Made by a program: the position numbers and the translations under genes. A DNA stretch of 64,000 nt from Paenibacillus sp. D2_2 (GTDB taxonomy: Bacteria; Bacillota; Bacilli; Paenibacillales; Paenibacillaceae). The stretch spans positions 2,946,501 to 3,010,500 of the forward strand of contig NZ_CP133605.1 in NCBI RefSeq assembly GCF_031199965.1, given 5' to 3'. The stretch's first letter is position 1, and every line of letters begins with the position of its first letter. The notes beneath the pieces are model-generated. The model was given only the letters and a program-made list of their open reading frames with translations, was not told where the DNA came from and searched no databases. Positions 8,859-43,488 of the stretch are shown one piece after another.

Positions 8859-9139
8859 GTTCAAAAAGTCCGATTTTCAGCACCGAGAAGGTTGGATGAA
8901 GCTAGGGTCTGAGGAGCGGAGCGTACGTTTTGAGTACATGAGCACCGGAAGACCCGGCTGAATTCAAGATTCGATGCCGAATAAGCTCTCCGTGTTTCTT
9001 CGTGTTAGATATAGAATTTATTCGTTATCAACGGAGTTGATGAAATTCTATATCGCCAAGAAAACCTACCTTTGAATCGCGGTCGCTCATCCTTGAATGA
9101 CTTCGATCGGTTTTCTTATCAAAAGTGGACTTTTTGAAC
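8859..9139. repeat. MITE-like repeat, copy A (281 bp), between cysJ and cysI
   Basis: Bounded by GTTCAAAAAGTCC and its inverse GGACTTTTTGAAC. Its left part is the reverse complement of the core shared by copies B-D (GCACCGAGAAGGTTGGATGA, GGAGCGGAGCGTACG). It also holds an extra internal stem (TATAGAATTT.../...AAATTCTATA). It has no coding capacity. It occupies nearly the whole cysJ-cysI gap and may weaken read-through. Confidence 0.8.
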
Positions 9140-12615: not shown

Positions 12616-14344
12616 TCACTTAAACGAATGTAGCGGCAGCATCACTTTTTCCTTGACTTGATTAACGATCTCATCAATAGAGACAAGCTTACTGTGCCCA
12701 TCTTTACGAACAGTTAGCTCGACTTCCCCTTGTTCAGCGTTCTTGCCTACTGTAATTCGCAGTGGAATACCAATTAGCTCAGAATCCTTGAATTTTACGC
12801 CAGCACTTTCATTCCTATCATCATACAATACCTCAATCCCTTGCTGCGACAGATCGGCATACAGTCTTTCTGCAGCTTGAATTTGCTGTTCATTCTTACT
12901 GGATATAAGGATAAGATGAACTTGAAATGGAGCCACTGACATAGGCCAGATCATACCTCGATCATCATGATATTGTTCAGCAACGGCGGAGAGTAGTCTC
13001 GATATTCCAATACCGTAACAGCCCATGATCATCGGTTCCTTTTTACCGGAGCTATTCAAAAACTGAGCATTTAGCTTATCACTGTATTTGGTGCCTAGCT
13101 TGAAGATATGCCCCATCTCAATTCCACGTGAGAATTTCAGCCGCCCTTGCTCACAATGTGGGCAACGCTCTCCCTCTACTACGTTCCGGAAATCGCCAAC
13201 TTGCTCAAGCTTAAAATCCCGTCCTGGACGGACATGAATCTCATGTACATCCGCTTCATTGCCGCCTGGCAATGCCTTCACACATTATGGCAACCTCTTG
13301 ATCTACAAGCACAGGGATAAGGAGTCCACAAGGGCCAATAGAACCAGCAGGTGCCAGCCCAAACTCTTGTAGGGAACCTGGCTCAACAATCTCACAACTC
13401 TCGGTGTTCAAATATTTCATCACTTTAAGTTCATTGACCTGATGATCACCTCTGACTAAAACAGCAACAATTTGTTGATCCGTCTTATAAATAAGCGTCT
13501 TAATAATTTGCTTCGCTCCCACCTGCAGGCCGGTAACGAGTTCATCAATCGTGCGGATTCCAGGAGTGAGGATTTTCTCGCGCGGTGGCACTTCGGACGA
13601 AAGCACAACTGATGCAGCTCCGTCCCTACCAACAGCGGCTTCTATATTTGCTGCATAATTACAGCTAGTACAGGATACAATCGTATCCTCGCCAATATCG
13701 GCCAAGGCCATAAATTCATGGGTCTCCCCTTCGCCGCCAATCGCTCCCGCATCCGCCTCCACGGCTCTATAATTCAACTCCATACGCTCAAAAATGCGCT
13801 CATACGCCCCGTACATTTTTCGATAAGATCGATCTAATCCTTCCCAATCTATGTCAAAAGAATAAGCATCCTTCATCACAAATTCTCGTCCGCGAAGTAA
13901 TCCGAATCTAGGACGGCGCTCATCTCTAAACTTCGTTTGGATCTGGTACAGCGTGACGGGCAGCTTCCGATAAGAGTTAATCTCATCCCGTACCAAAGCT
14001 GTGATAACTTCCTCATGCGTTGGCCCCAGAACGAACTCCCGTTCATTACGATCAGATAGACGCATTAGCTCAGGACCATACACACTATACCGTCCTGACT
14101 CCTTCCACAGATCAGCAGGCTGGAGCGCCGGCATCAGTATTTCCTGCGCCCCGGTAAGTTCCATCTCCTCACGAATAATCTGCTCAATCTTACGTAATAC
14201 ACGCCGGCCTAATGGCAGATAGGTATAAATTCCAGCCGCCAATTGCCGGATAAATCCGCCTCTTAACAGCAATTCATGACTCGCCGCCTCTGCTTCCGCA
14301 GGCGATTCTCGCAAAGTGTTCAATAGTAAAGTGCTCTGTCGCAT
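12616..14344 (-). CDS. proS: Prolyl-tRNA synthetase (frameshifted)
   Basis: Class II aminoacyl-tRNA synthetase of the bacterial type with an insertion (editing) domain; about 575 aa reconstructed. The start at 14344 follows AAGGAGGTTGTTACA. Motif 2 is FRDERRPRFGLLRGREF and motif 3 is YGIGISRLL. The INS domain spans roughly residues 220-400, and the anticodon-binding domain is C-terminal. The two frames overlap at 13256-13281 and join if one base is removed around 13259-13272, giving IAGGNEADVH. This enzyme is normally essential, so the break argues for a base-calling error. Expression is controlled by the T-box leader upstream. Confidence 0.93.
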
Positions 14345-14370: not shown

Positions 14371-14780
14371 CAAAAAGACACATTCGTTAGGGACGAATGT
14401 GTCGTGTTACCACCCTATTTCGACAATGACGCATAGCAGTCGTTCAAAAAGTCCGATTTTGATCACGAAGCAATTCAGGAAGTAAATTCGGCATCGAATC
14501 TTGAATTCACCCGGGCCTTCCAGTGCTCACGTACAAACTACGTACGCTCCGCTCCTCACGCCCTAGCTTCATCCAACCTTCTCGGTGCTGAAAACCGGCC
14601 TTTTTGAACTTGAGTAAATTACATCATTGTCCTCTTTCTCGGATAACGGCCGAACCCCGGTAACGGTTATCCCGTTACAGCTCGCAAGTCAGGAAGTACT
14701 CCTTCGCCGGAAGAATCCTCTCAGCCTGTGGGATTCTCTCTGCACCGCGAACTTTGGAATACCGGTCTTGGTCATTGCTT
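14371..14780 (-). promoter_or_regulatory. T-box riboswitch of proS, interrupted by a MITE
   Basis: Read on the minus strand. Stem I: base GTTCGC (14747-14752) pairs with GCGAGC (14680-14685), with AGAGAGAATCCC and GGCTGAGAGG typical of the T-box distal arm. A candidate specifier CCT (Pro) sits at 14691-14693. Then come stem III arms at 14624-14631 and 14422-14429, T-box AATAGGGTGGTAACACG (14403-14419), and a terminator GACACATTCGT...ACGAATGTGTC followed by TTTTTG (14371-14403). Uncharged tRNA-Pro should stabilise the antiterminator. The 158-bp repeat at 14452-14609 lies in the stem III loop. Confidence 0.85.
14452..14609. repeat. MITE-like repeat, copy B (158 bp), inside the proS leader
   Basis: Ends are GTTCAAAAAGTCC and CCTTTTTGAAC. 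The core contains GATCACGAAG, AATCTTGAATTCA, GCTCACGTACAAACTACG and CCTCAC near GCCCTAGCTTCATCC, shared with the other copies. It has no open reading frame of note. Confidence 0.8.
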
Positions 14781-14787
14781 TTTTGAA

Positions 14788-14816
14788 ACTTTATCATGCA
14801 CAGGTGGGATAGTCAA
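14788..14816 (-). promoter_or_regulatory. SigA promoter of proS leader
   Basis: TTGACT (14811-14816), a 17-nt spacer, and TAAAGT (14788-14793) on the minus strand, starting three nucleotides from the hemY stop. It places the transcript start just upstream of T-box stem I. Confidence 0.7.
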
Positions 14817-16280: not shown

Positions 16281-17046
16281 CTACAAAGTTCCTTTAATAT
16301 ACACATCAATAGCATCTCGTAGAAATTGGGCCAGTCCATGCTGATGCTTGTCATAATACTCACGAAACCTCTCGTCCTCTACATACATTTGCGCTAAGCC
16401 CGCATGAGCTTCCTTATTGTAGCTGTTCCAATAATAAGTCAGCCACTCTCTATGCAATCCAGCAGCATGCTGAGCCTGTTCTCCTGCCGGATCTCCTGTC
16501 TTATACGCCTCCAGCAAAGCCGCAATGACTTCGTCGGCCAGTGCTGTCACACGCTCATATTGCTCAACTGTCATATTTCGGAGCTTCCCGTTTGATTTAT
16601 CGATTGTATCAGCGCCATATTTCTCTCGAATCTCAGTCCCATATTTCTGCTCATTCTTAGCGATTAACTGTTCTTTGAAGCCAGTAAATTTCTCTGTATC
16701 AGTCATCGTTATTCTCCCTTCTGCTTCGGTTATCGTATGATCTACATTCGCAATTAGCAGATCAAGCTGCCGCTTGCGGTCAAGGAGCTGTTTGCGATGC
16801 TGCTTCAGCGCAGCGATCCGATCAAAGGACGGGGCCGTAATCACCTCTTTGATGTGATCCAGTGCAAATCCAAGCTCGCGAAAAAACAATATTTGCTGCA
16901 ACTGGTTGAGCTCGGCTGCCCCGTAAATCCGATATCCTGATGAGTTGGTTCTTGCCAGGCTTAAGAATTCCAATCTCATCATAATAGCGTAGTGTCCTTG
17001 TACTGATCCCCGCTAGCTGACCCAACTTTTGAATGGTGTATTCCAT
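16281..17046 (-). CDS. MerR-family regulator with TipAS antibiotic-binding domain (frameshifted)
   Basis: Mta/TipAL-like activator, about 254 aa reconstructed. Start 17046 behind GGAGGGAAGCTG. The N-terminal MerR HTH reads YTIQKLGQLAGISTRTLRYYDEIG, then a coiled dimerisation helix (HRKQLLDRKRQLDLLI). The C-terminal TipAS domain ends YYDKHQHGLAQFLRDAIDVYI. The frame breaks around 16955-16956; removing one base gives ILKPARTNSSGYRIYG. In the family, hydrophobic or thiopeptide drugs bind TipAS and switch on efflux genes and its own gene; no target gene is adjacent here. Confidence 0.87.
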
Positions 17047-17185
17047 CAGCTTCCCTCCTGACAAATTCACTCTACACCTTAACGTAACGTGAAGGTCAAC
17101 ACCTATTTTATTATTCCTATATAAGTTATCTTGTTAATTGGCCTCGATTGGATTTCAAATCAGAAGCGGGCTTGATGAGCATCTT

Positions 17186-18825: not shown

Positions 18826-18935
18826 TAGGGGAACTTGTTTATCATTAATAGAGGTTAACTGGACTTTTTGAACACGTATTAATAGATGAGTATCTAGCTA
18901 CGTTGATAATTAGTGTAAGAAGATGAGGTAATGCG

Positions 18936-41856: not shown

Positions 41857-42063
41857 GTTCAAAAAGTCCGCTTTTGATCACGAAGTGGATTAAGAAGCAA
41901 ATTCGACATCTAATCTTGAATTCAGCCGGGCCTAAGCAGATGCTCACGAAGTCATGTTTCCTACGGAAACATCTCAGGTGCTCACGTACAAACTACGTAC
42001 GCTCCGCTCCTCAGTCCCTAGCTTTATTCAACCTTATCGGTGCCGAAAACCGGATTTTTGAAC
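41857..42063. repeat. MITE-like repeat, copy C (207 bp)
   Basis: Ends GTTCAAAAAGTCC and TTTTTGAAC, same orientation as copies B and D. It carries an extra internal segment with the small hairpin GATGTTTCC / GGAAACATC-type (ATGTTTCC TAC GGAAACAT). It lies directly after the MFS gene end at 42072. Confidence 0.8.
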
Positions 42064-42071
42064 TCGCATTG

Positions 42072-43289: not shown

Positions 43290-43315
43290 AATCTCTCCCA
43301 CTTTCTTAAAAGGTT

Positions 43316-43482
43316 GTTCAAAAAGTCCACTTTTGATCACGAAGTAACACTGAAAGCATATTCGGCATCGAATCTTGAATTCAGCCGGGCCTTCCGGTGC
43401 TCACGTACCAACTACGTACGCTCCGCTCCTCAGGCCCTAGCTTCATCCAACCTTCTCGGTGCTGAAAACCAGCCTTTTGAAC
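43316..43482. repeat. MITE-like repeat, copy D (167 bp), between marR and MFS genes
   Basis: Ends GTTCAAAAAGTCC and CCTTTTGAAC, same orientation and core as copies B and C. It separates the regulator from the transporter start by about 200 nt, so it sits inside what is otherwise a marR-MFS operon. Confidence 0.8.
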
Positions 43483-43488
43483 TCGCAC

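Follow-up and report, generated by a model that had tools for sequence, protein, structure and literature searches.

A MITE-like repeat in the stem III loop of the proS T-box leader of Paenibacillus sp. D2_2 and its recurrence in other T-box leaders

The window analyzed here is a stretch of 64,000 nucleotides from the genome of Paenibacillus sp. D2_2 (contig NZ_CP133605.1, positions 2,946,501 to 3,010,500). On its minus strand, a hemY-like protoporphyrinogen oxidase gene is followed by a T-box leader and by proS (Table 1). A cmscan run on 801 bases around the leader aligned it with the T-box model RF00230 over the entire model length (positions 1 to 219 of 219; 64.3 bits, E value 1.5e-13) and placed 192 nt as an insertion at the stem III position. 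The Rfam gathering score of RF00230 is 93 bits, and because the proS leader falls below this cut-off, nothing is reported when the whole window is scanned at that threshold. The full-length model match, the T-box motif, and the intrinsic terminator bear out an initial annotation of this DNA, made from the sequence alone, which had described a T-box leader with stem I, a specifier region, a T-box, and a terminator.

Table 1. Features of the proS leader region (window coordinates)
Feature	Position	Strand	Basis
T-box leader of proS, stem I through terminator, with the repeat inside	14386–14784	−	RF00230, cmscan
Promoter-like site TTGACT-17-TAAAGT, TG before the second hexamer, directly after the hemY-like gene	14788–14816	−	9/12 consensus matches only
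Probable specifier codon CCU (Pro)	14691–14693	−	By eye, without tool prediction
AAGAG, fits the RRRxG motif 5' of stem III	14632–14636	−	Sequence, by eye
Stem III 5' arm GACAATGATGTA	14620–14631	−	12-bp helix with the 3' arm
Stem III 3' arm TGCGTCATTGTC	14422–14433	−	12-bp helix with the 5' arm
T-box motif AATAGGGTGGTAACACG, 5' half of the antiterminator	14403–14419	−	Sequence and cmscan
Intrinsic terminator, 11-bp stem plus T run	14377–14403	−	Terminator scan
MITE-like insert, 168 bp from TIR to TIR, transcribed in orientation R	14442–14609	−	Copy comparison, nhmmer E value 9.1e-62
Probable full element with family outer ends (GAGGTW and ACRCAC positions, diverged here)	14436–14615		Copy alignment
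N-terminal portion of proS, ending at the frame interruption near 13,270	13268–14341	−	TIGR00409, 440.3 bits (cut-off 306.7)

The examined parts of the T-box are all present and in the usual order. The specifier position, assigned by eye, holds CCU in D2_2 and CCC in two related genomes, referred to below as G011 and G031; all of these are proline codons, matching proS. Stem III is preceded by AAGAG and followed by GAA (by eye), which agrees with the description, in PMC7583486, of stem III with its RRRxG and AA flanks as a portion of the T-box discriminator whose stem and loop are variable. The two 8-nt arms noted in the initial annotation (14422 to 14429 and 14624 to 14631) are indeed perfectly complementary, and the helix grows to 12 bp once G-U pairs are counted; the distance between the 8-nt arms is 194 nt and not the 158 bp originally given. 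The GACAATGA segment of the 5' arm is identical in G011 and G031, and the 3' arm of G031 carries one change, of the outermost base from C to T, which leaves a G-U pair. The proS T-box sequence, AGGGTGGTAACACG, has AAC instead of the usual ACC, and the alternative between antiterminator and terminator is present. What sets this leader apart from RF00230 is the 168-bp mobile repeat in the stem III loop.

The gene downstream, initially designated as essential, is the one class II proS that the genome search revealed. Its reading frame is interrupted near position 13,270 (within 13250 to 13290), giving ORFs of 375 and 221 aa. The frame is open in both G011 and G031. The argS frame (locus L193, named by eye) is also interrupted in the D2_2 assembly, which makes an assembly error likely, and both interruptions are probably sequence (indel) errors. 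A MerR-like gene at 16281 to 17070 (identified by eye) also looks interrupted.

The repeat, initially suspected to be of a mobile type, does belong to a multicopy family. It has no coding sequence, and its ends, GTTCAAAAAG and CTTTTTGAAC, are terminal inverted repeats (TIRs); GTTCAAAAAG occurs 7 times in the window, compared with 0.23 occurrences expected from shuffles. A genome search returned the proS copy, 39 other near full-length copies (88 to 92% identity), and 2 partial ones; 40 of 307 candidates were scored, so that the genome holds at least 40 near full-length copies. One exact 13-base repeat end has 130 matches in the genome (none for the reversed control), and a repeat match is present in 31 of 39 genomes of the genus. 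The family consensus extends past the TIRs (GAGGTW and ACRCAC) to a full length of about 180 bp. Beside these outer ends, 7 of 25 copies show a 5-bp duplication, against 0.88 expected from mismatched copy pairs, at the best of many spacings tried, and the target appears from these sequences to be AT-rich 5-mers. No target duplication is visible at the proS copy, as expected of an old insertion. The family is dispersed and intergenic, with none of 72 examined copies lying inside an ORF of 100 aa or more. A narrow search for an autonomous partner in the D2_2 genome gave 15 matches to a repeat end followed by ATG, and the 2 that were inspected are both solo ends beside unrelated genes. Judging by these sequence features, the repeat is MITE-like. 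Small hairpin-forming bacterial repeats of the bcr1 type are likewise intergenic, with an AT-rich 5-bp duplication and a structured transcript; they resemble the family of the proS repeat in size, location, transcript structure, and the probable duplication and differ in residing in a host family other than Paenibacillaceae.

Further copies or ends of the repeat are found in the window at 8859 to 9139, 18864 to 18873, 41857 to 42064, and 43313 to 43483, including a longer variant of about 280 bp. Solo repeat ends lie between genes at two other loci, L370 (chemotaxis genes, by eye) and L367, and one of them has a Shine-Dalgarno-like stretch and a start codon a short distance behind it. Two copies outside T-boxes, near position 2495 of locus L031 and near position 1432 of L328, sit between inverted flanks of 12 and 11 bp, respectively, and are perhaps other insertions into hairpin loops.

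A search for proS in 40 genomes of the genus gave matches with E values of 1e-100 or better in 35 of them, and loci were obtained for 30, D2_2 included. The T-box motif pattern is present in 27 of these 30 and absent from 3. In G011, the closest relative (proS 93% identical; locus L137), the repeat occupies the same site, and the next relative, G031 (90% identical; L138), retains a relic with a 10-base repeat end and altered junctions. All 24 other congeneric leaders lack a repeat end (with at most 1 mismatch) within 110 nt before the T-box motif, and in one of these leaders an end with 1 mismatch lies some 330 nt upstream; among the first 14 named proS loci, 11 have the T-box motif, none of them with a repeat end within 110 nt of it. 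Orthologous leaders had been proposed as the place to look for an ancestral repeat, and by their sequences the insert at proS is derived, not ancestral T-box sequence.

The D2_2 and G011 repeats at proS are identical at 152 of 168 positions, which falls within the range of 74.9 to 92.6% identity among six orthologous copies in these two genomes; extra constraint on the proS copy was not found in this comparison. The junctions are more diverged: the 5' junction matches G011 at 6 of 14 positions and G031 at 0 of 2 alignable bases, and the 3' junction matches them at 7 and 8 of 12 positions, respectively. Such divergence would fit independent insertions in D2_2 and G011, but these are not needed, as the same position and the G031 relic fit one event. 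The switch core, in its turn, shows no sign of decay at the sequence level. The segment from antiterminator to terminator is identical to that of D2_2 at 58 of 58 positions in G011 and 57 of 58 in G031, and stem I to stem II at 146 and 141 of 153 positions, with 75.1% and 69.3% of the proS third codon positions identical in the same two comparisons.

Insertions of this repeat are not confined to proS. At an E value of 0.01 or better, Rfam searches yield 85 T-boxes in the three genomes (30 in D2_2, 29 in G011, and 26 in G031), and the repeat profile places a repeat in the stem III position of 9 of them. These include 2 of the 30 in D2_2 (proS and glyQS), 4 of the 29 in G011 (proS, glyQS, and two of three tandem T-boxes preceding a second thrS-like gene), and 3 of the 26 in G031, which are all three T-boxes of the second thrS array and carry relics some 75 nt long. 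With two short G031 relics recognized by alignment, at proS and glyQS, the total is 11 of 85 T-boxes at three loci; since the profile misses the G031 proS relic and short relics can escape it, relic counts are lower bounds. At an E value of 0.01, the same profile has no match in stem I or stem II of the 85 T-boxes beyond overlaps of up to 5 nt at the 5' edge. Scores below 93 bits are found for 51 of the 85 T-boxes, including all 11 with a repeat or relic (the G031 proS leader, with its relic only, scores 79.5 bits) and 40 of the 74 others, so that the repeat by itself does not account for the low scores.

We also surveyed 394 genomes of the family with exact patterns, which miss diverged copies, so that the frequencies given above hold for the three genomes only. 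A repeat end located 5 to 35 nt before AGGGTGG has 30 matches in 25 of the 394 genomes (the reversed control matches 3 genomes). Seven of the 30 continue as a T-box: proS in three cases, glyQS in two, and the glyQS of G363 and tyrS of G343, both from another genus (tyrS was named by a profile match and the G363 glyQS by eye). When the repeat end was required 36 to 66 nt before AGGGTGG, none of the 12 matches was a T-box, and a looser pattern, with 21 matches in 17 of the 394 genomes, gave no new repeat-bearing locus by profile. At tyrS only a 6-bp arm was found, which makes the placement uncertain; this leader probably carries the repeat in stem III.

The second thrS-like gene (in G011, 349.7 bits against TIGR00418, whose cut-off is 383.65, for a protein cut by the locus end) provides several stages of insertion in orthologous leaders. 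In D2_2 (L303), each of the three tandem T-boxes has a compact stem III, GGATTCGCTAAAGGTAAGCTGTTAGCGGATTG, without the repeat. In the G011 array (L235), an empty T-box is followed by one with a full repeat and then by one whose repeat has an internal deletion; in the G031 array (L238), relics with both repeat ends are found in all three. The arms are recognizable across the species despite single-base changes: GATTCGCT is paired with AGCGGATT in D2_2 and in the second and third T-boxes of G011, with AGTGGATT in the first T-box of G011, and with AGCGAATT in the first of G031, and the second G031 T-box combines AATTCGCT with AGCGAGTT. At glyQS, the arms are GATTTGCTGA and TTAGCAAATC in both D2_2 and G011, and GATTTGC/GCAAATC is kept around the relic of G031; the glyQS of G363 has the arms GATTATCTTG and TAAGATAATC, with CTATAA repeated at both ends. 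Because 6 of 29 background copies also lie between arms of at least 8 bp, arms alone are weak evidence, and support for the placement in stem III comes from homology to T-boxes rather than from the arms. In the G011 glyQS leader (L234), the upstream and stem III copies have private deletions in common, which suggests gene conversion between them.

In equilibrium folding models, computed without tRNA, pseudoknots, or cotranscriptional kinetics, stem III of the native proS leader is paired with a mean probability of 0.99, and the insert forms 0.0 pairs with the rest. Joining the flanks without the repeat gives a stem III probability of 0.98, and flipping the repeat makes the fold only slightly worse than the native one (0.92, with about 2 cross pairs). 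With 40 dinucleotide-shuffled inserts, by contrast, stem III drops to a mean of 0.27 (standard deviation, 0.33) with 28.7 cross pairs, and none of the 40 matches the native fold. Thus, in the model, it is the inverted-repeat ends of the insert and not its length that make it harmless. The terminator forms in all folding cases. The apical helix of stem I has a probability of 0.07 with, without, or with the flipped insert; stem I is poorly modeled, and the same value in every case makes the model uninformative on this part.

The two strands of the repeat differ as RNA. The sense RNA is the more stable in 43 of 43 copies (mean, −62.0 versus −50.2 kcal/mol), and when 34 copies drawn from several genomes are aligned, 12 pairs have changed on both sides in the sense fold versus 9 in that of the other strand. 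A terminator-like hairpin is seen in 0 of 43 copies on the sense strand and 18 of 43 on the other, or 0 of 7 and 4 of 7, respectively, when the copies in T-boxes are taken. This contrast holds under the terminator rule built into the scan tool but was not seen with a home-made score applied earlier, so that the difference depends on the rule used. The 43 copies share one consensus and ancestry and thus are not independent tests.

At all five loci with the repeat in stem III (proS, glyQS, the second thrS, glyQS of G363, and tyrS of G343), it has one and the same orientation. The same orientation is found for the repeats that end no more than 6 nt from the start of stem I, before argS, thrS, glyQS, hisS, and the second thrS (loci L193, L305, L234, L239, and L238; argS and hisS were named by eye); in L238, a profile match on the other strand (E value, 0.0059) overlaps a stronger match on the usual strand and was left uncounted. 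Repeats farther upstream, or beyond the terminator, are found in either orientation. No general orientation bias was found in the genome, with 38 copies in orientation R and 30 in F (68 classified of 72; a previous tally of 77 rows, in which some copies were counted on both strands, had 41 and 36), or among the copies upstream of genes (11 versus 5; P = 0.21). Against this background, 10 of 10 in the same orientation would arise by chance with a probability of about 0.003 if the loci are independent, and the five stem III loci alone with a probability of about 0.06; the one-sided orientation is therefore suggestive. In the thrS leader, the repeat next to stem I lies between a TATAAT-like box and stem I. 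Before a metG-like gene (named by eye; L231 and L312), in D2_2 and G011, a repeat lies downstream of the terminator, 28 to 29 nt after the T-box match.

These observations support the initial interpretation of a mobile repeat inserted in stem III of the proS T-box and go beyond it in the recurrence of the insertion, its one-sided orientation, and the predicted folding of the repeat RNA apart from the switch. In our reading, the proS leader is most probably a T-box that still works, with a mobile helix that folds on its own in a loop permissive to insertions. A copy of an abundant MITE-like repeat of the Paenibacillaceae would have entered the apical loop of stem III in an otherwise ordinary attenuator before the three sampled species diverged. 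The sense transcript of the repeat would fold as one long hairpin closed by the TIRs and so extend stem III as a separate helix, unpaired with the parts that read the tRNA or form the antiterminator. The switch would bind tRNA-Pro through the stem I specifier and the T-box bulge and then choose between antiterminator and terminator. Selection would keep the base of stem III and its flanking purines and leave the loop end free to gain, change, and lose the mobile element. The T-box, the insert and its site, its derived state, the retained arms, and the recurrence can all be read from the compared sequences; the insulation of the repeat from the switch is predicted by the folding models, and we infer that regulation by tRNA-Pro persists, with the insert nearly neutral.

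The repeat may instead actively target the loops of DNA hairpins or palindromes, which would make stem III a landing hotspot and not merely a tolerant site. The copies between long inverted flanks outside T-boxes (12 bp in L031 and 11 bp in L328) and the three stem III loci in one clade are in line with such targeting. We consider it unlikely, given that arms of at least 9 bp, with a 26-nt 3' flank, surround only 3 of 29 background copies, that the target appears to be AT-rich 5-mers, and that selection against insertions elsewhere would give the same pattern.

Somewhat less probable still is a co-opted repeat, which as a long stem III helix, as a pausing site, or as an RNase III target would shift the threshold or timing of the switch and would have been selected for. 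The recurrence in stem III of synthetase T-boxes, on the same strand at all five loci, the greater stability of the sense RNA in 43 of 43 copies, and the retention of both repeat ends in the G031 second thrS relics could be taken as signs of such a role. However, G031 has lost most of the insert at both proS and glyQS, the second thrS array of D2_2 has no repeat, the proS copy is no more conserved than other shared copies, and the 43 copies come from one consensus and are not independent.

We regard it as improbable that the insertion broke the switch and left a decaying pseudoriboswitch, with proS either permanently switched on or poorly expressed. A 194-nt loop in the domain that senses aminoacylation, an Rfam score below that of the relic-bearing G031 leader (64.3 versus 79.5 bits), and the interrupted proS frame would all be compatible with such a loss. 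Against it, the core is identical or nearly so in three species whose third codon positions differ by 25 to 31%, the stem III arms at proS, glyQS, and the second thrS have survived both insertion and subsequent deletion with little alteration, and the interruption of argS as well points to an assembly error. That the repeat sequence was an original part of the T-box, for which nothing speaks beyond its presence at the same place in two species, is ruled out by the congeneric leaders without it and has practically no chance of being correct in view of at least 39 other near full-length copies in the genome and of 0 of 72 examined copies lying inside ORFs.

A MITE-like repeat in a T-box leader has a precedent in the pneumococcal trp operon, where a BOX repeat lies between two T-boxes and, according to PMC3049150, RNA-seq suggests that the switches still act. 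The BOX repeat thus seems to be compatible with working switches, as we propose for proS. In contrast to that arrangement between two switches, the proS repeat occupies the loop of stem III within one switch, and repeats of its type recur at several synthetase genes, where all the loci found have it on the same strand. A review (PMC10969869) notes that BOX elements may contain T-box motifs and considers riboswitches formed from MITEs conceivable. The main text of the T-box database paper (PMC7778990) uses neither “insertion” nor “repeat,” and in the mostly non-subscription literature on riboswitches and MITEs, on MITEs of Paenibacillus, and on insertions in T-boxes we found no repeat inside the stem III of a T-box, which is not proof of novelty.

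These leaders constitute natural pairs of T-boxes with and without some 170 to 200 nt in the discriminator, and the second thrS transcript of G011 combines an empty, a full, and a trimmed stem III side by side, so that the tolerance of stem III is directly testable without designed inserts. Several switches have received the repeat in one and the same loop, apparently since the folding of its RNA is self-contained and leaves the remaining switch undisturbed, which suggests a way for hairpin-forming repeats to settle harmlessly inside riboswitches. Some of the length variety of stem III may come from mobile repeats. As a broader and more tentative proposal, which we put forward as a possibility rather than an expectation, stem III of Paenibacillaceae T-boxes would be a recurrent home of a single MITE family, the sense RNA of which folds into an independent hairpin devoid of terminators, with insertion and trimming yielding the length variety and orientation marking selection at the RNA level. 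If this is true, mobile DNA would be a source of the known length variety of stem III.
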